64,000 bases of DNA, from the IMG/VR virus record IMGVR_UViG_3300024312_000003, positions 62,001 to 126,000 of that record. One strand, 5' to 3'. Numbering within the stretch: the first letter of the stretch is position 1; every line of letters begins with the position of its first letter. The notes below the pieces were generated by a model. That model did not search any database. It saw only the letters and a program-made list of their open reading frames with translations, and was not told where the DNA came from. Source of the stretch: a virus. Shown here piece after piece: positions 35,837 through 56,395 of this stretch. Made by a program: the position numbers and the translations under genes.

Positions 35837-38800
35837 TTATAACCAATATTCCCCGGAAGGATTATAAGTCCAATAATCAACTCTTGTCATTTCGTCAGAT
35901 CCTGAATTCATTGTAAAACCAGGGTGACCGCCGGACAGCGGAGTTGGATCAGTGTAAGTTGTAAACAGAACACCGTTTATATAAACCTCAAAGGTATCGT
36001 TAGCAGTAGGTACAACTTTAAGAATTGTATCGGCTGTTAAAGTATAAGGTATTGATGTTTGTTCAACCCAATTTCTGGTTATTCTTAAATTAGAAGAATT
36101 GAAGAAGAATCCATAAGCTTGAGTCATTGTTGCTCTGAGCACAGCACCAACTTCAAAATTGAATGTGGTTTGAAGCGGTTGTTTTATCCTCATTTCTACT
36201 TGGGACATCGGACCTGTTTCAGCATCTACAAACCAGCAGTATCCTCCGGCGTTTTTAGAAACATAACTGCCTCTAAGATATCCTTCTCCATCGCAATAGA
36301 AATAGTCTAAAGCTGGATAACTACCGAAGGCTAAAGAGCCAGCCCATCTAGAATCTAATGTTCTAACAGCAGTACCTGATGAAGCTGAGAAATTAAACTT
36401 TCTATAAGCGTCCGGATCAGCTGTGGCTGCCTTAACATAAACAGTTTCAGAGTACTCAGACCACGATTCTCCTATAGAGTTCGTCGCAGTAATTAAACAT
36501 CTTAGTCCAGCACCAACCATATCTAGCGTTGGGGTAGTCTCGTAAGTGTTTTGACCTATCAGTAAAGTATTACCAGCATACCACTGATAGGTGTAACCAA
36601 CAGGACTGTTCGTCCATGTACCAGTTGTTACTCTTACTGGGAATCCGGATTGTTTAGATCCAGATATTGTTGCCAAAGTAACAATTTGAGGAGTGGTAGC
36701 CGATACAATAACTATACCTGCTGATATGGCTGTAGTTAAGCCGGCATCGTTAACTGCTGTTTCTACGAAATAAACCTCATAACCTATATCGTCGTTGGTA
36801 CTAGTGTATGTATCGCTAGTTTCACCGACAATTAAAGAAGATATTCCGTTTAATTTTCGCATCCATTGAATTGTACTTGAATCAGCTTTAGGACTATATC
36901 TGGCCTTATTAGCTGTTAGTACATTTCCTATTACTCTGTTACCGGTGACATAAGCTTGCGAAATAGCTTTAGGGGGAGGCATCTCCATATAAGGATAATT
37001 GATGGGATCTCCTTGTGGAGTAAGTCCTCTTTCAGTTATCATTGGATGATACTGCGCGTTTAGATTGTAATAAACGCTTGTGGGTAGCAGACTTACATCA
37101 TCATCATCGTAAGATACAAAGCCGGGATCGACATCTTGATTAGTGATGTTTAGATCCACTAAAGATCCTTTATAAGAAATACCCTGTAGAACAGATATGC
37201 CATCTCTGTTTGCAGTAGCTGGATCATAAGCCGTAGGCACAACGTTTCTTGCAAAGTTCGTATCGCTAGCTTCTAATACCCCAGCGTACGCAAAGAAACC
37301 TAACTTGGGAAGTTTACCAGTTGGAGTTCTTTTACCAGAGTAAAGTATGTTATTCTTAGCATAGAACTTCATTGGTTCTCTGGTATTCCATGCGCTGAAT
37401 AATGAGGAATTAAAACTATCGTAATAAACGTTATTAAAGAAACCGGAAGATGAGTCGGCTCTTATTGCGACGACATTCTTATAAAAGAAAACAATGCCCC
37501 CGCCAGTTACTTGATTGTGCTCTGAATAGAACGGACCATCGCCGTGACCTATTACATTAGCAACATTGTCCATGAAGAATGTATTGCCGTAAATGTAAGG
37601 GAAATTAGCTAACTTAATTCCAAATACATCAGTAATAGTTAGAGCATCCACATACGTTGCTTGAGGCTCTCTTAAAGATATGCAGTTTTGTGGACCAGAG
37701 CGAATATGGTTGTATCTGAATATCTGACCAGTCGATCTATCTTTGATAGAGTCGCCTGCGTTACCGTTCTTATTTGCACCTATGTAGTTGAATTCATAAA
37801 TGGTGTTAGTTGATTCAGAATAACTATTGTGCGTACCGGTATCACCAACTTCACCATTATCATAGATGTAGTTAAAGAGTATATGTAAATTCTTTAGCTG
37901 AAATCTAGGACCGTTATTAGGATTAGAGTTAGCAAATATACCACAACTATTATCGTGAATTTCACAACCAGAAATGGTAATGTAATCCCCACCCATGACC
38001 TTAATGCCAGCGCTGAAATGACCCCAACGTGTTTGTTGGCCATACATGTTGATAAATTCATTATCCTTATAGGCGGCCGTAATCTTTAGTCCATGGATAT
38101 GGATGTATCCTGGCCGATAAGATGTACTAGCACCGATACCTAATGGTTGAATGATGTTAATTAAACCAGCCCCAGTGTGGGTATCGTTAAGTCTGGAATT
38201 AACCGGATCGTTTTCAGCTCCGATACCATTTAGTTCAGGTAATTGACCTTGTGGTCCTCTGACTCCAATGATTTCAATCCATCTGGTTATTTCACCCCTA
38301 ACATGTACTGGTAGTACGTGTCTGTAAGGTTGTGCTCTCCAATAAACAAATACTCTATCACCAGGTCTGAGGTTTAACCAAGGAACTTCGCTTAATTCAG
38401 CATATTCCATTCCTGGACCTACTCTGAAATCATAACTTGTTAAATCAACACCGATTCGGTTTGGAAGAACGTGATAGTACTTCCAATTTATGTCAGTTAT
38501 ATCGACTGCATTGAAAACAGGCTGATCTCTTAAATTAAAAGGATTAGGAGCTATCTGTCCTGGTGTAAATTCACCATTGCGATACTTCTTAAACCAAGTT
38601 ATGGTATCTTGTCTGGTTGGCACTGGTGGCAATATACTCATGATTAAGTTAGCGTTAGATTCACTAACTCCATCACTTATTCGATACGTCACCATTGGAA
38701 TAAGACCGTAATAACCATTGGTTGGACTTACAGACCAGGCGCCATTTGAATCTAATGAGAATAAACCGGCAGCTCCAAAATCAATAACATCCCCAGGCTG

Positions 38801-39463
38801 ATATGTGGTGGCATGACCTGAAACCGTAAGAGACACCACTGTCAGTGGAGATCCTTCGTAATCAAAGTCGTTAGTTAAGACATTGCCGGTAGAAGTTACA
38901 TTAGGTGGTAATGCAACAGAATCAGTCATACCGACAGGACCTTGATTGGTGCCTGTTATGTTAATTGTTAGCTTTTCTAATTTAGAACCAGTTGATCTAG
39001 CATCCAATACTCTGTAGTAAATTTCTTCACTTGCGACCTGTCCTTGAGTCAGAGCACTACCTGCAGATCCAATTGTAAAAATCCAAGCACCGTCGCTGTT
39101 TAGTCTGAAAGTTCCATAAACGGTATTGAAAGTAGTACCAACAGAACGATTTCCTCCAGAATAAACTATTTCATTAACGGATATGAAATCTCCCTCTGGA
39201 TCGCTATCGTTGGTTAAAACGTTGCCTGTTATTATTCTATTTGCATCAATAAGAGTTGCGGTATCCGGATTAGTAACCGGCATTTTATTAATGTTCTGTA
39301 ATTGCTGGAATACTGAGTTACCGGCAATTGGTTTTACTTCTCCGTTTGGATACTTTATGTATAAAGTTTCAGTAACAAAAGAATATCCTAATTCTTTCAA
39401 TAATAGATCTGACGGATCAGGCTGTGCCTTTGTCTCCGAAGATCTTATGGTAAATCTACTCAT
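35837..39463 (-). CDS. Tail-fibre/adhesin-like protein 3, 1208 aa
   Basis: The start is at 39463 (MSRFTIRSSETK), with AAGGACGATC upstream. Domains in order: a short N-terminal block shared by all three giant proteins (DPSDLLLKELGYSF, YPNGEVKPI); two cadherin/VCBS-like repeats (GNVLTNDSDPEGDF and GNVLTNDFDYEGSP); a DFRVGPGMEYAE block followed by a right-handed beta-helix with pectate-lyase-like repeats; an Ig-like domain (TGTWTNSPVGYTYQWYAG); and a C-terminal LamG-like part ending VYINGVLF...PLSGGHPGF. The N-terminal block probably binds the virion and the rest touches the cell surface. Catalytic residues for sugar cleavage cannot be told by eye. Confidence 0.8.
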   Translation of the reverse strand: MSRFTIRSSETKAQPDPSDLLLKELGYSFVTETLYIKYPNGEVKPIAGNSVFQQLQNINKMPVTNPDTATLIDANRIITGNVLTNDSDPEGDFISVNEIVYSGGNRSVGTTFNTVYGTFRLNSDGAWIFTIGSAGSALTQGQVASEEIYYRVLDARSTGSKLEKLTINITGTNQGPVGMTDSVALPPNVTSTGNVLTNDFDYEGSPLTVVSLTVSGHATTYQPGDVIDFGAAGLFSLDSNGAWSVSPTNGYYGLIPMVTYRISDGVSESNANLIMSILPPVPTRQDTITWFKKYRNGEFTPGQIAPNPFNLRDQPVFNAVDITDINWKYYHVLPNRIGVDLTSYDFRVGPGMEYAELSEVPWLNLRPGDRVFVYWRAQPYRHVLPVHVRGEITRWIEIIGVRGPQGQLPELNGIGAENDPVNSRLNDTHTGAGLINIIQPLGIGASTSYRPGYIHIHGLKITAAYKDNEFINMYGQQTRWGHFSAGIKVMGGDYITISGCEIHDNSCGIFANSNPNNGPRFQLKNLHILFNYIYDNGEVGDTGTHNSYSESTNTIYEFNYIGANKNGNAGDSIKDRSTGQIFRYNHIRSGPQNCISLREPQATYVDALTITDVFGIKLANFPYIYGNTFFMDNVANVIGHGDGPFYSEHNQVTGGGIVFFYKNVVAIRADSSSGFFNNVYYDSFNSSLFSAWNTREPMKFYAKNNILYSGKRTPTGKLPKLGFFAYAGVLEASDTNFARNVVPTAYDPATANRDGISVLQGISYKGSLVDLNITNQDVDPGFVSYDDDDVSLLPTSVYYNLNAQYHPMITERGLTPQGDPINYPYMEMPPPKAISQAYVTGNRVIGNVLTANKARYSPKADSSTIQWMRKLNGISSLIVGETSDTYTSTNDDIGYEVYFVETAVNDAGLTTAISAGIVIVSATTPQIVTLATISGSKQSGFPVRVTTGTWTNSPVGYTYQWYAGNTLLIGQNTYETTPTLDMVGAGLRCLITATNSIGESWSEYSETVYVKAATADPDAYRKFNFSASSGTAVRTLDSRWAGSLAFGSYPALDYFYCDGEGYLRGSYVSKNAGGYCWFVDAETGPMSQVEMRIKQPLQTTFNFEVGAVLRATMTQAYGFFFNSSNLRITRNWVEQTSIPYTLTADTILKVVPTANDTFEVYINGVLFTTYTDPTPLSGGHPGFTMNSGSDEMTRVDYWTYNPSGEYWL

Positions 39464-39518
39464 GATCGTCCTTGTTTTTTGGGTTGACTGTATCACACAC
39501 GATACTTCAAAAAATACA

Positions 39519-39548
39519 GCATAAAGAGGGGAGATCCCCTCTTTATGC
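39519..39548 (-). terminator. Terminator after adhesin gene 2
   Basis: GCATAAAGAGGGG pairs with CCCCTCTTTATGC around a short loop, reaching to the edge of the stop at 39550. The stem is nearly the same as those at 35806 and 46610. Confidence 0.7.
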
Positions 39549-39549
39549 T

Positions 39550-42500
39550 TTAGGCGTTATCAGTCCAGTATGTGAATTCATTAGGTAAGTCGTTATCGCC
39601 TATACCTATTGACAATCCAGGATACCCTCCAGACAATGGGGAAGGATCATCATAAGTACTGAGTAATGCATCATTTACATAAATGCTGATGACACTACCA
39701 GATCTAGTTGCTCTTAGCTTATTAAGAGTTGCTTGACCATGATTCCATGCATTGATATAAGTTCCATTGCGATGGAGAGTTACCTCAGTTGTACCGCAAT
39801 TTATTTCATATCCTTGCACAGCATCAAAGTTCAAGACTACTCCTAAATTACCGCCAGAGTTCCTGAAGTTCATTCCTATTTCAACAGACACATTATTGCC
39901 TTGAGAATTTTCATACCAAGCTACACCACCATTCCAAAGTGAAACGTATGAGGCAGTTAATGCTCCATTCCCAGTACAGAAACAGTAATCGTGAGGATAT
40001 TGTCCTGCAGTTTGTCTGCTGTTCCACTTGGAATTTAGAGTCTTAAGACTGGTTCCATTTAATGCGCTGAAATTAAACTTACCAGTGGCATCAGGGTCAG
40101 TTATGGCCGTTATAACCGTTATCAGATTAGAGTCAGCTTCACCAAATTCACCACCAGAATTAGTTGCTTTAATTCTAGCAAAAATACTCTTTCCAATATA
40201 AGAATTGTCTGGAGTAAATGAAGTTGAAGTCTGTCCTGCTATTAGTGTTGAACTACCGTTGGTCTCTCTAACATACCACTGAACAGCGTAACTAATTGGA
40301 GTATTGGTCCAGTTACCATTATTACTTACAGTAACAGCAGAACCACTCTGACCACTTCCAGTTATAGTCGGTGCTGTTGTATTTTGAGGAGTAGTGGTTG
40401 TGGCTATATGGAATAAATCCGATTCAGATACAATGGTAGTCGATCCATAATGGAAAGTACATCTGAATTTAAGATCCATACCTCCGTCATCACTCACAAC
40501 TGTGTAGCTTAATGATGTCTGTCCGGCAATAGGATTTGTTCCACGATACCATTGATAATCAACAGAATCAAACTGAGGGCCTATTATTGCAGGTATTGCG
40601 GTGAGTACTGATCCAATTCCATGCGAGCCAGTTATACTCGGAACAGCATGAACAACAGGTGTTCTTTTCTTACCATAGGGTGCTTGTACTGGTAATCCTA
40701 ATGGCGTTAGTGCTCTAAGAATGACTTCGTTTTTGTGCGCCCCGTTTAAAGTAAAATACGGGCTCGTATTCATTATGCTAAAGTCATTATTTTGAATACT
40801 AGCAAATCCTGGATCAGCATTACTTAACGTTACATTCAGATCAGTTAGAGTTCCAGTGTATGGATTACCTTGGTTAACACTACCCGCATTTGGAGTTGCA
40901 GCTGGGTTAATCTCAGTAGGTTTAAAACTGTTTGTGAAATTGGAATAGAAATCAGCAATACCCTGATATCGGAAAGCCGAGAAAGGAGGAACAGTTCCGC
41001 CTTGAGTAGCTGCCTTAGAGTAATACAAATTATTGTAAGAAACTCCGGTTTGTAATGTTCTGGTATTCCAGAAATCAAATGTCGGAACCCCACCAGCATC
41101 GGTGTGTGCGCCAGCATAATCATATCCCGCTGCATCAAAATTAGCAACGCAGATATTATTGTAGAAGAAACACTTACCGTTTCCTCTTACTTGATTTTCG
41201 AATCCACCATATACGAAAATACCATCGCCGTGAGCAACCATACTTGCTTCGTTTATGAACTCAAATTGATTTGCATAAACGTAACTATAGTTAGCACAAT
41301 TAACTCCTAAAGAGTCTACTTGAGTAAAGCCTATGCTAACAGTTGCTTGTGGATCACGCAAAGACATTGCATTTGCAGAGCCGCTCTTGAAATAATTGTA
41401 TCGGAAAATATGTCCAGTCGATCTATCTTTGATCGAATCACCGGCATTACCTGGTTTATTAGGTTCAAAGTAGTTAAATTCATAAATCATACTTATTGCT
41501 TCAGTGTATGAATTATGAGTACCATAAGCCTCCTGTCCAGTCGCACCGTTATTGCCAAAACGATTAAACAACATATGGCAGAATCTAGACACCAATCTTT
41601 CTCCGTTACCTGGAGTTGAATTGATGAATACTCCAATTCCGTTATCATGGAAATAACAACCGGAAACAATCAGATAATCAACTCCAGCGACCTTGATACC
41701 GGCTACAAACTCACCCCAATCTTTATTAGCACCGGTGTAGTCCGTTATTCTTGAAGGAGTCATTGTATTTCTAATTTCTAAACCATGGATATGGATATAA
41801 CCTGGTTTAAAGAAATTATTAGACCTACCGTCTAGTGGTGGTACGATAACTATCATACCTGAACTAGAGTGAGTGCTGTTCAAAGAACTTGTACTGGCTA
41901 CTTCAATAGCGTTTGTTGCGTCCAATATTGGTTTGTTACCGTTAGAATCTTTAACACCAATAATTTCAATCCACTTTGCAGACGTTCCTCTGTTTTGCAG
42001 AGTGATAACATGATTATACGGCGTGGCTCTATAGTAGACAAATACTCTATCACCAGGAAGCAATTTATCCCAAGGAATATCTCCGATTTCAGCATATTCC
42101 ATTCCTGGACCTACTCTGAAGTCAAGACAGCTGGAATCAGCAGCATTTCTATTTGGGAACCATGGTCTATAGTCCCAATCTGGATAGGTCCAATTTACAG
42201 CGTATGATGGATCGACTCTTACTTGAACTGGATTGGTAGCAATGTTTACCGGGGTAACGTCACCATTCTCATATTGATTAAACCAATTAACAGCTTGAGT
42301 ATATTCGTTACTAACGTTAGGCAAGACAGTAACAACAATGCTTCCAGAAGTAACTGTCGCATTTCCATCTGTTACCGAGTACTGTATTGTTGGGAAGTAA
42401 CCAGAATAATCAGGATCGGCAGTAATAGACCACGTTCCATTAGCATTTACTGTAACACTACCAACGTCAGTTAAATTAACTGTAGAACCCGGAGTTCTGT

Positions 42501-43221
42501 TAGTCGGATCACCACCAACTCTAAATGACGAAATAACCAATGAATCACCATCAGCATCAGTGTCATTGAGAAGAGCATTTCCTGAAACTGTACTGCCTGC
42601 AACAACCGTACCGGAATCAGCAACAACTATAGGTGATTCATTTCCACCCAGTATGTTTATTGTTAAAACTGACAGAGTCGATTGATTTGCATTTGAATCT
42701 ACGATTCCGTATTGGATGGTTTCTGTAACACTATCTCCAATCTTCATTGTTCTGGAAGCTTGATTCAGTGTGAAAGTCCACGAACCATTTGATTGAATCG
42801 TAAAAGTACCGTGGGTTGTTGTAAATGCTTGCCCGACTGTTCTTGATTGTAGTGCGTAACTTACACGATTAACAGTGCGAGTATCATTTTCCGCATCAGT
42901 GTCGTTGGTTAAAACGTTACCAGTAACTTGACCGTTATTTGATTCAGTTATACTGGCCGAATCCGGGTTAGCTACTGGGTTTTGATTAATTGGGCCGGCT
43001 CCTTCTAGTACACTTACTCTTCCTGTCAAATCAGCTATGGCTGTTTGATGTTGTTGAACTAATTGTGTAAAGTAATTACCGCCTATTTCTCTAACTACCC
43101 CGTCAGGATATCTCAAAAAAAGTTTATCTGATAGATACGAGTATCCTTGTTCGTTTCTTAACAAGTCAGTTGGAGCGGGCGCTGTTTTATTTGCTGTGGT
43201 TCTTAATAATGGTCTTGACAT
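39550..43221 (-). CDS. Tail-fibre/adhesin-like protein 2, 1223 aa
   Basis: The closest paralogue of protein 3: same N-terminal block (APTDLLRNEQGYSY, YPDGVVREIGGN), then a short coiled-coil (LTGRVSVLEG), two cadherin/VCBS-like repeats (GNVLTNDTDAENDT and GNALLNDTDADGDS), the DFRVGPGMEYAEI block, a beta-helix, two Ig-like domains and a LamG-like end (PLSGGYPGLSIG). One more Ig-like domain than protein 3. GAGAGAAAAT precedes the ATG. Likely a receptor-binding or surface-adhering virion protein. Confidence 0.8.
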   Translation of the reverse strand: MSRPLLRTTANKTAPAPTDLLRNEQGYSYLSDKLFLRYPDGVVREIGGNYFTQLVQQHQTAIADLTGRVSVLEGAGPINQNPVANPDSASITESNNGQVTGNVLTNDTDAENDTRTVNRVSYALQSRTVGQAFTTTHGTFTIQSNGSWTFTLNQASRTMKIGDSVTETIQYGIVDSNANQSTLSVLTINILGGNESPIVVADSGTVVAGSTVSGNALLNDTDADGDSLVISSFRVGGDPTNRTPGSTVNLTDVGSVTVNANGTWSITADPDYSGYFPTIQYSVTDGNATVTSGSIVVTVLPNVSNEYTQAVNWFNQYENGDVTPVNIATNPVQVRVDPSYAVNWTYPDWDYRPWFPNRNAADSSCLDFRVGPGMEYAEIGDIPWDKLLPGDRVFVYYRATPYNHVITLQNRGTSAKWIEIIGVKDSNGNKPILDATNAIEVASTSSLNSTHSSSGMIVIVPPLDGRSNNFFKPGYIHIHGLEIRNTMTPSRITDYTGANKDWGEFVAGIKVAGVDYLIVSGCYFHDNGIGVFINSTPGNGERLVSRFCHMLFNRFGNNGATGQEAYGTHNSYTEAISMIYEFNYFEPNKPGNAGDSIKDRSTGHIFRYNYFKSGSANAMSLRDPQATVSIGFTQVDSLGVNCANYSYVYANQFEFINEASMVAHGDGIFVYGGFENQVRGNGKCFFYNNICVANFDAAGYDYAGAHTDAGGVPTFDFWNTRTLQTGVSYNNLYYSKAATQGGTVPPFSAFRYQGIADFYSNFTNSFKPTEINPAATPNAGSVNQGNPYTGTLTDLNVTLSNADPGFASIQNNDFSIMNTSPYFTLNGAHKNEVILRALTPLGLPVQAPYGKKRTPVVHAVPSITGSHGIGSVLTAIPAIIGPQFDSVDYQWYRGTNPIAGQTSLSYTVVSDDGGMDLKFRCTFHYGSTTIVSESDLFHIATTTTPQNTTAPTITGSGQSGSAVTVSNNGNWTNTPISYAVQWYVRETNGSSTLIAGQTSTSFTPDNSYIGKSIFARIKATNSGGEFGEADSNLITVITAITDPDATGKFNFSALNGTSLKTLNSKWNSRQTAGQYPHDYCFCTGNGALTASYVSLWNGGVAWYENSQGNNVSVEIGMNFRNSGGNLGVVLNFDAVQGYEINCGTTEVTLHRNGTYINAWNHGQATLNKLRATRSGSVISIYVNDALLSTYDDPSPLSGGYPGLSIGIGDNDLPNEFTYWTDNA

Positions 43222-43248
43222 ATTTTCTCTCTATTTAAACTTTAAACT

Positions 43249-43275
43249 TAAGAGGAGGGAAATTCCCTCCTCTTA
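43249..43275 (-). terminator. Terminator after adhesin gene 1
   Basis: TAAGAGGAGGGAA pairs with its complement directly beyond the stop at 43277 on the minus strand. Confidence 0.7.
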
Positions 43276-43276
43276 C

Positions 43277-46200
43277 TTATAACGGATCCAATATAACGGC
43301 TATTTTAACAAGATATTGCTGTCCACCATATACTGCAGTTAATGTAGTATTACCAACATCTGGAGACACTCCGTGTGCTACCAAATGAGTTGGATCTACT
43401 TGACTTAACAGTAGTCTGGCCCCAACTATCCACGGACTGCTTATTGTCGGGGCTTCATTACCCCACGATCTACCTGCGGAGAATCCAGCAATTACTCTTT
43501 GATTTGCAGATGTTGCTGATATGGTTATTTCTCCATTCACACCCGATGCACCTTGTGAATCACCAACGCTGTTAACATAAGTACCAGCCACTTCATAAAC
43601 AACAACGCTACATGTATCTTGAACATTAGACGTTCCAGTTACTGTAAAGTTAGAGCCAGTATTTGTGACAACACAAGTATATAGTTGATAAAAAGCAGAA
43701 TTATATCCAATAGAAATATCTTGTCTCTTTACCCATGCATTACCAAAATTATCACCGATACTCTGCCCATTCATTACAAAAGCAACAAGAGTGTTACCTA
43801 CTACAGGCGCAATGCTCATGACAACTGCGGCAGTCATTGCTGGAGTCGGCCATGTGTCTGATCCAGATGCAATTTGAACAATTTCTGCTGCTGATGCATT
43901 TGTAACTGTCCTAACATCGGAATAAACAACGGTCGTACCTACAACATTAGTTGCATCATATCTGACTCTTATTTGTCCAAGATGTGATGCTGTCAGTAAC
44001 AATGTTGGACCGTTTTCACCAACAATATCGCTCCAGCCTGAACCAGTATTTACTTGCCACTGTCTGATTACTGTATCTGGATTATAAAGCCAAGACGGAT
44101 CAGTGACTGATACTGTTTCACCAGGGACGTATATATCTAAAGAATCTAAAGCCGGTTGTTGAGCAGCCACAGGAGCAACCCTAGGAGGAGCTGTAGGATC
44201 TCTTTCTAAAGCTCCTAAGTCAGTTGATCCAATATTAGTCGGTCTTAAAGATATACCATTTGTTCTTGGATTAGGTTGTCCTTGAACAGGGTGATCTGTA
44301 CCGACACTGGCAGGAATACCAGCAGGTAATGAACTATATATGTCTATTGCAGGTGATCCTGCTCCAAGTGACAAGTCGTGAAATTCTTTATTGATAAATA
44401 CTGGATCAGAAGCAATAATTGTTCCTAATCTATTAACAGCGTGGGATGATGAAGTAGCACCACGAGCAGCACTGGCATCTAGGATGGTGGTATATCCCTG
44501 TATTAGGTTTGTACCTCTCAAATTGAGAGTACCTGCCAAATACAGTAGATTCAATCTGGCGATAGAACCATCAAACAAAATCACATTACCCCATGCTTCA
44601 CACACTGTTTCAGGCCATGATAGCTGTATGAAGAATTGGTCGGCTTGATTGTAATTACTGTTATGGTAGTAAGTATTGCTAAAGAAATACAATTTCTTTC
44701 TGTGATTTACAGCAGCTGATCCACTGCCTTCCCACTCACCACCGCCTTCTGACCCATCTGATCCAAAGTGAATAGGTCTCCAAGCATTACCTGATAAATT
44801 CTCATCATTGATCAGAACATTACCATAAACGTAGTCAATGCCAAAATCAGGATATTCGACAAACGCATCTGTAAATTCAGGATGCACCATGTCAATCATT
44901 CTGGATGTAGACTCTATCCAATTATAACGAATGACTTCTTTACCGACTCTACTCTTATAGGTAGATCCACCAGCTCCATTGCGACCTCTGCCAAGGTAGT
45001 TACCTTCTATTAAAGCGTCGTAGCCTTGAATGTAACATCCGTGTTCATAACCGCTACCATTTACACCATTACCGTAAATGCGGTTATATTGTATTTTAAT
45101 TCTCTGACAAGATTCACCAATACCGCCTGGTTTTGACATGGTGAATATGCCTTGAGAATTATCGTATATGACGCAATTTCTAACAGTCACATCACTGGTA
45201 GGTTGTATCCAAATACCTGCGGAGAATCCATACTGTACAGTAGCACCTAGTGAATTGGTATAGGAAGCATCAGCAGCAGCTCCTCTTATTTCCAAATTCT
45301 GGATAATGATCCATTCTGGATTTTCACTAGTTGGAGTTCCAGGTCTTCTTTTTATCGTAATTAGACCAAAGCCTTGATTATCTGTAGTAAATATGTCGGT
45401 ATCATTACCAGGCATGCTTCCTACAGCAGTCGTCGCATTTCTACCATCGATGATTGGTCTATTACCATCCTCATCAGTTACACCGTTTATGATGAAAGGT
45501 GCACTAGCTGTCGCCTTAACGGCAAAAGCAAATTTCGTCTTGTAAGGTAAGGCTCTGTGGTGTATGTTAACAACATCACCAGCCATCATACTCGCCCAAG
45601 GTACAGTGTCTAATTCTTCATACGGAAAATCTGGACCAACATCGAATGTTCTTGTTCCAGTTATTCTGGTTGTAACTGGATTGCTATCGATGTTTATCAA
45701 ACCACCTTGCAATACAATTGTAAGTATTCCAGTTCTCGAATCCGTTCCATCGGTTACTAAATATCTGATAATTATGTTGCCAGACATTTCAGAACCAGTT
45801 CTGTTACGAATCCAAGTTCCATCTGCGTTAAGTCTGAAGTTACCATAATCAGGAACTATAACAGTGGTTCCCGGAGAATGAGTACCAGCAACGCCATCAA
45901 TTGTAAATGACACTATGGATAAAGTATCTGATTCATAATCTGAATCGTTACTCAAGACATTACCTTGCTGTGATGTTGCTCCTTGAGTAGATACTAAAGT
46001 ATCATTAGATACAACGGGAGAACTATTTGTGCCGATTATGTTTACTTCTAATTCGCTGAATTTTCTACCACCAGATGTGTCTTCAACAGCGCATAGGAAA
46101 AATTCACTTACAGACTCACCTATTTTTAAAGCACGAGCAGCATTGTTTGGCGTGAAAGAGAAACTACCGTTTCTATTAATAATCATACTACCATAAGCAG

Positions 46201-46564
46201 TACTAAAAGAAACTCCAACATTTCTCGTAATAGAGTTGTTTTCGACATACGTTACATACAGCTCATCTCCGACGTCCGCATCGCTGTCATTCATCAGAAT
46301 ATTACCGTTTATGGTGTTATCTGAATCATTACCGCTGAATAAATCATCAATTGCGTTTGGTAATTTGTTTATTTGAAGAAGAGCTTGTTCTAGCGATGAT
46401 ACTCTGCTAAGTAACTCCTCACCACCAATTTGTACAATACTTCCGTCTGGTTTCTTTATGACTAATTTACCAGATACAAAAGAATATCCCATCTCTCTGA
46501 TAAGCATGTCAGTAGGATCTATATTTGGTTTATTTTCTGTAGACCTTGTTAAAAATCTATTCAT
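43277..46564 (-). CDS. Tail-fibre/adhesin-like protein 1, 1095 aa
   Basis: Shares the N-terminal block (DPTDMLIREMGYSF, KPDGSIVQIGGEE, followed by a VSSLEQALLQI coiled coil), two cadherin/VCBS-like repeats (NGNILMNDSDADVGD and GNVLSNDSDYESD), DVGPDFPYEELDTVPWAS, and a beta-helix. The C-terminal third differs from the other two: one Ig-like domain (SWLYNPDTVIRQWQVNTG) and then a serine- and glycine-rich beta domain in place of the LamG-like part. The swapped end suggests a different target. Confidence 0.8.
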   Translation of the reverse strand: MNRFLTRSTENKPNIDPTDMLIREMGYSFVSGKLVIKKPDGSIVQIGGEELLSRVSSLEQALLQINKLPNAIDDLFSGNDSDNTINGNILMNDSDADVGDELYVTYVENNSITRNVGVSFSTAYGSMIINRNGSFSFTPNNAARALKIGESVSEFFLCAVEDTSGGRKFSELEVNIIGTNSSPVVSNDTLVSTQGATSQQGNVLSNDSDYESDTLSIVSFTIDGVAGTHSPGTTVIVPDYGNFRLNADGTWIRNRTGSEMSGNIIIRYLVTDGTDSRTGILTIVLQGGLINIDSNPVTTRITGTRTFDVGPDFPYEELDTVPWASMMAGDVVNIHHRALPYKTKFAFAVKATASAPFIINGVTDEDGNRPIIDGRNATTAVGSMPGNDTDIFTTDNQGFGLITIKRRPGTPTSENPEWIIIQNLEIRGAAADASYTNSLGATVQYGFSAGIWIQPTSDVTVRNCVIYDNSQGIFTMSKPGGIGESCQRIKIQYNRIYGNGVNGSGYEHGCYIQGYDALIEGNYLGRGRNGAGGSTYKSRVGKEVIRYNWIESTSRMIDMVHPEFTDAFVEYPDFGIDYVYGNVLINDENLSGNAWRPIHFGSDGSEGGGEWEGSGSAAVNHRKKLYFFSNTYYHNSNYNQADQFFIQLSWPETVCEAWGNVILFDGSIARLNLLYLAGTLNLRGTNLIQGYTTILDASAARGATSSSHAVNRLGTIIASDPVFINKEFHDLSLGAGSPAIDIYSSLPAGIPASVGTDHPVQGQPNPRTNGISLRPTNIGSTDLGALERDPTAPPRVAPVAAQQPALDSLDIYVPGETVSVTDPSWLYNPDTVIRQWQVNTGSGWSDIVGENGPTLLLTASHLGQIRVRYDATNVVGTTVVYSDVRTVTNASAAEIVQIASGSDTWPTPAMTAAVVMSIAPVVGNTLVAFVMNGQSIGDNFGNAWVKRQDISIGYNSAFYQLYTCVVTNTGSNFTVTGTSNVQDTCSVVVYEVAGTYVNSVGDSQGASGVNGEITISATSANQRVIAGFSAGRSWGNEAPTISSPWIVGARLLLSQVDPTHLVAHGVSPDVGNTTLTAVYGGQQYLVKIAVILDPL

Positions 46565-55243: not shown

Positions 55244-55269
55244 GAGGAGGGAGATTTCTCTCCCTCCTC
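55244..55269 (-). terminator. Inverted repeat, likely terminator
   Basis: GAGGAGGGAGA pairs with TCTCCCTCCTC around a TTTC loop, between the damaged frame at 55300 and the start at 55197. Confidence 0.6.
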
Positions 55270-55299: not shown

Positions 55300-55384
55300 T
55301 TAACTGTCTTTTTCAAATCCATTACAGATTTGATACTCATCAATTAAATCGGCAGGAATATCAGATTCAATAGGTTCGGATCAT
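55300..55384 (-). pseudogene. Tiny gene with broken frame
   Basis: ATG 55384 has a good site (AAGTAGGTGATA) but stops after five codons. If one C of ATGATCC were missing it would read on as M-I-EPIESDIPADLIDEYQIC then NGFEKDS and stop at 55300. It lies directly after the tmRNA gene. It may be a remnant, an indel error or chance; the evidence is moderate. Confidence 0.35.
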
Positions 55385-55402
55385 TATCACCTACTTGTTA
55401 TT

Positions 55403-55697
55403 AAACCTGATAACTAGGTTTTGCTCAAGCGGCCAGGCGCTGAGCAAACGTGCTGTCGTTTGCGGCAGTTAAATTGAGATTTGTATGTTTCGATTGATTT
55501 CTCAATCTCTAACGGAGTTCTCATACTTACTCCGAGTAGTAATCTCCACTAGCTCACCCTGTCGAAACCAGATCTGGCCCACCTAAACAAACACAATATT
55601 GAATCTGCTTAGGTGGACCAGGTGGGAATCGAACCCACGTCCAGAATGCATTTGCTTTGATTTTCAGTTTCGGTATTTCTACCTCTACACACTACCA
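55403..55697 (-). ncRNA. ssrA: Circularly permuted tmRNA (two-piece type)
   Basis: On the minus strand the 3' half comes first: a GGTAGAAATACC hairpin, GGACGTGGGTTCGATTCCC (T-arm) and CTGGTCC with A73, ending at 55614. A 33-base linker follows; its ends pair (CCACCTAA/TTAGGTGG). The 5' half then begins with GGGCCAG at 55580. It pairs with CTGGTCC and gives the G3:U70 alanine signal. GGTTTCGACAGGG follows, then a pseudoknot-like GAGATT/AATCTC block, and the tag frame 55425-55463: A-N-D-S-T-F-A-Q-R-L-A-A then TGA. A final hairpin lies at 55403-55421. tmRNA frees stalled ribosomes and tags the product for proteolysis. CCA is not fully encoded (CCT). Confidence 0.92.
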
Positions 55698-55698
55698 T

Positions 55699-56196
55699 TT
55701 ATACTTCAGTCCAAGTTCTGCCATTTCTAATATCAGAAACAGTTGATTTGGATATGTTGTATTTATCAACATAGTAACTGTATGGTTCTTTTCCGTATTT
55801 GATGTTACTAACCTGCTCTATTGTCAAATGCGAATTATTTCTAACATTAATACCTTTAGCAGATCGACCTTTATTTACCATATCATCCATATTGTCTTGA
55901 TGAGTGCCTGCAAATAAATGATCAGGAGCAACACATTTACGATTATCACAATGATGACAAATCATAATACTGGGGTCAAGAATCTGACCACCAATAAATA
56001 ATTGAAAAGCCCATCTATGAGCGCGTATTTTAGACTGTTCCTCTCTAGATCCAACTGATATCTGACCGTATCCATCTTGATTGAGTTTACCTGTCCACTC
56101 TATACAATCATTATTTGGATTAAGTTGAAGTTTGTCTATAAAACGTTTTAAGACTTTTTCATCAAATACGATATCTGGATCTAGAGAATTTGACAT
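55699..56196 (-). CDS. HNH endonuclease, homing type, 165 aa
   Basis: The start at 56196 (MSNSLDPDIVF) follows TTGGACGCATC. The HNH core reads ICHHCDNRKCVAPDHLFAGT at residues 79-98, with catalytic H in HH, N and a late H, and cysteines that bind zinc. A RAHRWAF segment before it and a C-terminal HTH-like SYYVDKYNISKSTVSDIR (DNA recognition) are typical of free-standing phage homing enzymes. Its stop lies two bases before the tmRNA gene, so the pair is likely co-transcribed and may move together. Confidence 0.88.
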   Translation of the reverse strand: MSNSLDPDIVFDEKVLKRFIDKLQLNPNNDCIEWTGKLNQDGYGQISVGSREEQSKIRAHRWAFQLFIGGQILDPSIMICHHCDNRKCVAPDHLFAGTHQDNMDDMVNKGRSAKGINVRNNSHLTIEQVSNIKYGKEPYSYYVDKYNISKSTVSDIRNGRTWTEV

Positions 56197-56395
56197 GATG
56201 CGTCCAAGAATTATTGTACGGAATTGTGCCACCCCCGTACGGGAGGCGCAAGGAGATCGAGGGTTTCTAACTCAATCATCGGCGCCCGCTAAAGAGTCCT
56301 TTCGAGACTCTACCTACCACGACTTTACGACCAACTGCAACATCGACGTAAACTTGTTGATTTCTCTCTACAACAAGTAGTGATGTTGTAATTTA
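56197..56395 (-). other. Structured non-coding leader of the HNH gene
   Basis: This 199-base gap has no frame. On the minus strand it holds AGAGTC/GACTCT with a TCGAAAG loop, GGCGC/GCGCC, the palindrome CCCGTACGGG, and complementary CCGTAC/GTACGG pieces. GC content is visibly above that of the neighbours. It may be a structured RNA or a control element of the endonuclease. Confidence 0.4.

Follow-up and report, generated by a model that had tools for sequence, protein, structure and literature searches.

Does the minus strand of this phage DNA carry a complete circularly permuted tmRNA gene, and what would a phage use it for? A preliminary description of the window (the whole 64,000-nucleotide stretch that was analysed) had claimed such a gene at positions 55403-55697, and had named a covariance and ARAGORN search as its check.

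The permuted tmRNA gene

Permuted matches were obtained, and the claim of a phage-encoded permuted tmRNA was borne out by ARAGORN, by the RF04321 (tmRNA_permuted) model and by the beta_tmRNA (RF01850) model. ARAGORN reported a permuted tmRNA at 55334-55703 (minus strand) with the tag AANDSTFAQRLAA. The RF04321 match covered the full model (positions 1-213 of 213) with 76.3 bits and an E value of 7.6e-13. This exceeds the curated cut-off of 47 bits; the score (76) is lower than those of relatives scored with the same model (79-162). The beta_tmRNA model gave a local match to the tRNA-like domain only, with 91.4 bits (cut-off 84 bits) and an E value of 2.7e-26. Although above the cut-off, it spans only model positions 75-172 of 331, so that the mRNA-like part diverges from that of the bacterial model and the gene as a whole was not assigned to the betaproteobacterial subtype. 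The 295-nt stretch had a precursor folding energy of -99.6 kcal/mol compared with -74.8 ± 4.4 for shuffled sequences (z = -5.6). No second permuted-tmRNA match was present within the 180,490-bp record. The gene and its parts are as follows.

55371-55697, minus strand: permuted tmRNA gene, approximate limits (ARAGORN, RF04321 at 55425-55683, RF01850 at 55550-55649, fold z-score)
55612-55697, minus strand: acceptor (3') piece, transcribed first, ending ...CTGGTCC-ACC; 5' end approximate
55642-55648, minus strand: 3' strand of P2a, CATTCTG, with its partner CAGGGTG at 55555-55561, 7/7 pairs (beta_tmRNA alignment)
55622-55638, minus strand: T-arm, GTGGG-TTCGATT-CCCAC
55615-55621, minus strand: 3' strand of the acceptor stem, CTGGTCC, bearing U70 of G3:U70
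55581-55611, minus strand: linker, 31 nt
55574-55580, minus strand: 5' strand of the acceptor stem, GGGCCAG; the mRNA-like piece begins here
55557-55570, minus strand: conserved TGGTTTCGACAGGG of the tRNA-like domain, overlapping the 5' strand of P2a (CAGGGTG, 55555-55561)
55483-55534, minus strand: candidate PK1, CGGAGT (55529-55534)/ACTCCG (55513-55518) plus GTATG (55522-55526)/CATAC (55483-55487) (shuffle test)
55492-55507, minus strand: hairpin GATTGA/TCAATC inserted within candidate PK1
55425-55466, minus strand: tag frame GCC GCA AAC GAC AGC ACG TTT GCT CAG CGC CTG GCC GCT TGA, encoding AANDSTFAQRLAA and a stop (ARAGORN and A86 rule)
55383-55421, minus strand: candidate PK2, after the tag, AAACCT (55416-55421)/AGGTTT (55403-55408) plus loop GTTATC (55409-55414)/GATAAT (55383-55388) (shuffle test)
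55244-55269, minus strand: terminator-like hairpin downstream of the tmRNA, 11 bp with a weak T run, a possible transcript end

The acceptor half comes first, the 5' half second, and the linker lies between them, which is the permuted, two-piece layout. All 19 pairs of the three helices in the tRNA-like domain form: 7/7 in the acceptor stem, including G3:U70, 5/5 in the T-stem and 7/7 in P2a. The seven-base acceptor stem with the alanine identity signal, as described earlier, was thereby recovered. Across 28 distinct permuted genes (this one and 27 others) G3:U70 was invariant and helix pairing was kept nearly throughout, with up to 7 two-sided changes per gene relative to the present gene. 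At the 3' end the gene encodes ACC and then a T, so that the last A of CCA must be added; the beta model consensus also ends without it. A linker had been predicted correctly, as had the pairing of its ends, which together with the preceding ACC prolong the acceptor helix in the precursor fold; its length, counted after ACC, is 31 nt and not 33.

Four H-type pseudoknot candidates with 6+5 Watson-Crick stems were observed, a number reached in 0.8% of 500 shuffles. PK1 and PK2 were assigned by eye and are candidates, flanking the tag frame on both sides. The upper part of the earlier limits was retained, but the gene continues past 55403 because candidate PK2 reaches 55383. No promoter was identified for the tmRNA gene. 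Judged by its predicted helices and tag frame, the locus is a complete permuted tmRNA gene in a phage context.

Resume codon and tag

The choice of frame in tmRNA depends on A86, four bases upstream of the resume codon, beside U85 (PMC2481249). The bases before GCC at 55466 are U-A-A-C-U, giving the required U at -5 and A at -4, whereas position -4 before GCA at 55463 is U, a base that abolished activity at this position in E. coli (PMC2481249). Because only GCC has the U-5/A-4 context, it is most likely the resume codon and AANDSTFAQRLAA the tag. The alanine of the charged tmRNA would precede it, so that A+AANDSTFAQRLAA is the most likely addition; a start at GCA would give A+ANDSTFAQRLAA. 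The preliminary description had the frame and its L-A-A end before TGA right but began at GCA, and the tag is probably one alanine longer. Its description of the tag as novel-looking still applies, with 13 codons instead of the usual ten residues. From the GCC in its U-5/A-4 context, the frame runs to a hydrophobic -AA end and a stop.

The gene could in principle be a decaying, host-derived copy, in which drift has left the mRNA-like part non-functional while the tRNA-like domain is still recognisable. Such decay would agree with a beta_tmRNA match that scores the tRNA-like domain only and with an RF04321 score below that of the relatives. It would also agree with the search results for the mRNA-like part: no close homologue of this part or of the whole gene was found in the searches, and no exact match to 22 bases of the 5' half was obtained. 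However, the tag frame is intact from its U-5/A-4 context to the LAA-stop end, as are the candidate pseudoknots flanking it, and the three tRNA-domain helices pair in full; we consider decay unlikely.

Phage context and proposed function

The record is phiKZ-like. It encodes a major capsid protein (PF25620, E 8e-189), a homologue of PHIKZ123 (phiKZ gp123 RNA-polymerase, E 3e-69), a PHIKZ128 homologue, a DnaB-like helicase and an SbcC-like subunit. The phiKZ-type capsid protein together with its own RNA-polymerase subunits places the phage in the phiKZ-like (Chimalliviridae-type) group. For chimallin and PhuZ, the single candidate protein examined gave no match. Among cultured phages, Burkholderia phage FLC9 has the closest capsid (47%) and is also nearest by SbcC. 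On the basis of this proximity and of the beta-type tRNA-like domain, the host is probably betaproteobacterial. The complete permuted tmRNA described here belongs to a phiKZ-like jumbo phage. None of 8 tested isolates of this group was positive: neither a permuted tmRNA nor a standard tmRNA above cut-off was found in them with stricter filters, under which weak matches can be missed. A weak tmRNA match in FLC9 was rejected as tRNA-Phe. The phiKZ capsid was absent from 16/16 other tmRNA-bearing viral contigs tested.

The gene directly upstream lies on the same strand:

55699-56232, minus strand: HNH endonuclease gene, ending two bases before the tmRNA region (PHROG phrog_59, E 3.8e-30; Pfam HNH_3, E 2e-8)

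Short stretches of this gene share 75-81% identity with Cronobacter phage Ss1 and Acinetobacter phage Petty, as expected of a mobile endonuclease gene. Elsewhere in the window, three consecutive large genes at 35837-46564 (minus strand; 1219, 1223 and 1095 aa) encode cadherin-like and bacterial Ig domains, with an additional NosD match in the third. No PHROG match was obtained for any of them; the products are possibly virion surface or adhesion proteins. A 704-aa protein at record position 41864-43978 (minus strand) matches the solved structure 9rp3, named Gp316/JADA (E 3e-7).

Because ssrA often serves as an integration site (PMC11915505), the locus might be an attachment-site remnant, that is, the gene part with which a temperate element integrating into ssrA restores its target. 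This origin is extremely improbable: the contig has no tyrosine integrase, the gene is complete and stands among same-strand phage genes, and the phage is phiKZ-like. No SmpB was found on the contig, which may be a fragment, so that SmpB could be encoded elsewhere. The lack of SmpB would suit an inhibitor whose tRNA-like domain titrates host SmpB. In mycobacteriophage DS6A, an RNA with a tRNA-like domain only inhibits endogenous tmRNA (PMC4131195, PMC11915505). Unlike the DS6A RNA, the present gene has kept a full tag frame that includes the resume context and a stop, and we regard an inhibitory role as very unlikely.

With high probability, then, a phiKZ-like phage, probably of a betaproteobacterium, carries a complete permuted ssrA that is processed, charged and used with host factors for ribosome rescue and tagging. 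We infer expression, two-piece processing, charging, tagging, host and benefit as follows. A single transcript would be made, in which the linker helix prolongs the acceptor stem. The 31-nt linker would be excised by host RNase P and tRNA 3'-trimming enzymes, the host nucleotidyltransferase would complete CCA, and the acceptor and P2 helices would hold the two pieces together. The RNA would be charged by host AlaRS via G3:U70, and host SmpB would bring it to stalled ribosomes. Translation would resume at GCC, appending A+AANDSTFAQRLAA, and host ClpXP, probably with SspB, would degrade the tagged protein. The benefit to the phage may be that ribosomes are kept free late in infection, while mRNAs are degraded.

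Relatives and known systems

Pattern scans of IMG/VR detected permuted tmRNAs in many viral contigs, some of which could be proviral or bacterial. The nearest tRNA-like domains (83-84% identity over 119 nt) were those of IMG/VR L019, L024, L037, L041 and L042, with the tag ANDERYALAA. Their acceptor stem GGGCCAG/CTGGTCC is identical to that of the present gene, but they differ in their ten-residue tag and in PK1. A capsid-alignment search and a structural-protein search of IMG/VR gave no relatives. In two strict contig pattern scans, no bacterial gene was found that shares the acceptor stem or the T-arm, and a bacterial donor was not identified. These patterns would miss even the nearest phage relatives, which have TTCGACTCCC; therefore, the empty scans do not show absence in bacteria. 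Cupriavidus megaplasmids (L053, 1501-1606) carry the tRNA-like domain of a permuted tmRNA, for which ARAGORN gave a tag without an LAA end. Permuted tmRNAs with the tag ANSDSFRLVA were seen at L072 681-756 and L075 3141-3216; the contigs are 234,547 and 331,776 bases long and gave no phiKZ capsid match.

Cultured phages of Acinetobacter (two), Stenotrophomonas and Synechococcus also carry permuted tmRNAs. No tmRNA feature is listed at these loci, and the genes are apparently unannotated.

L052, 1438-1755: permuted tmRNA of Acinetobacter phage vB_AbaM_3098, with hypothetical proteins annotated across the locus
L063, 785-1118: permuted tmRNA of Acinetobacter phage BUCT628
L065, 762-1105: permuted tmRNA of Stenotrophomonas phage DLP6
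L064, 601-1019: permuted tmRNA of Synechococcus phage BUCT-ZZ01

Acinetobacter and Stenotrophomonas have a one-piece tmRNA, so their phages may differ from the hosts in tmRNA form. The gene of vB_AbaM_3098 resembles the present one in being permuted and in its tag ANDSTFGTRALAA, in which ANDSTF at the start is separated from LAA by a long spacer. However, vB_AbaM_3098 is a 55-kb phage and not a phiKZ-like jumbo phage, and the tmRNA identity is only 71% over 93 nt.

Tags of ten residues are the most frequent in the tmRNA database (PMC11915505). In 7 distinct permuted phage tags, this one included, ANDxx(F/Y) and (L/I)AA are separated by 3-4 residues compared with 1 in ten-residue tags, a comparison that takes no account of relatedness among the phages. 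The spacers in the longer phage tags are AQR, GTRA, GAKT, APMA, GEMR and GEDR; the comparison leaves out L018, L049 and SAR11-type loci, for which ARAGORN gave long tags with probably wrong resume codons. Ten-residue tags also occur in phages, and the long spacer is not a phage-only rule. The ANDxx(F/Y) end of the tag binds SspB in the E. coli system. Phage permuted tmRNAs might repeatedly evolve a modified degron, with the AANDxx(F/Y) adaptor end and the LAA ClpX end kept and a spacer of 3-4 residues, a spacing seen also across unrelated phages, that passes phage-tagged proteins to host ClpXP differently from host-tagged ones. We find this doubtful. Adding a SENY linker to an ALAA-ended tag left KM with SspB unchanged in E. 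coli assays (PMC8512704), which speaks for a modest spacer effect at best. Recurrent longer tags in unrelated phages would offer a cheap test of whether protein degradation is retuned in infection or ribosomes are merely kept free.

Phages have been known to carry tmRNAs for a long time, and permuted ones are already published, for Methylophilales phage Melnitz and about 50 others (PMC9004378), which makes the original claim less surprising. The Melnitz report gave tmRNA in 402 of 18,146 phage genomes, with two-piece forms making up 53 of 133 unique structures (PMC9004378). SmpB and tmRNA have been reported for huge phages (PMC7162821). On its sequence features, the present locus adds a beta-type gene to the known phage examples, from a phage group that yielded no other. 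Melnitz likewise has a permuted ssrA in a phage genome, with proposed ribosome rescue or tagging through host proteins (PMC9004378). It is a myophage of the SAR11/OM43 type, has a glutamine riboswitch and carries a gene of alphaproteobacterial type, whereas the present gene has a beta-type domain and belongs to a phiKZ-like phage. With the betaproteobacterial RF01850 and the merged RF04321 (PMC11915505) the gene shares the gene order, the acceptor and P2a helices, the pairing linker and the ACC end without an encoded A; it departs from them in its mRNA-like part, in a 13-codon tag compared with the typical 10, and in the PK1 insertion.
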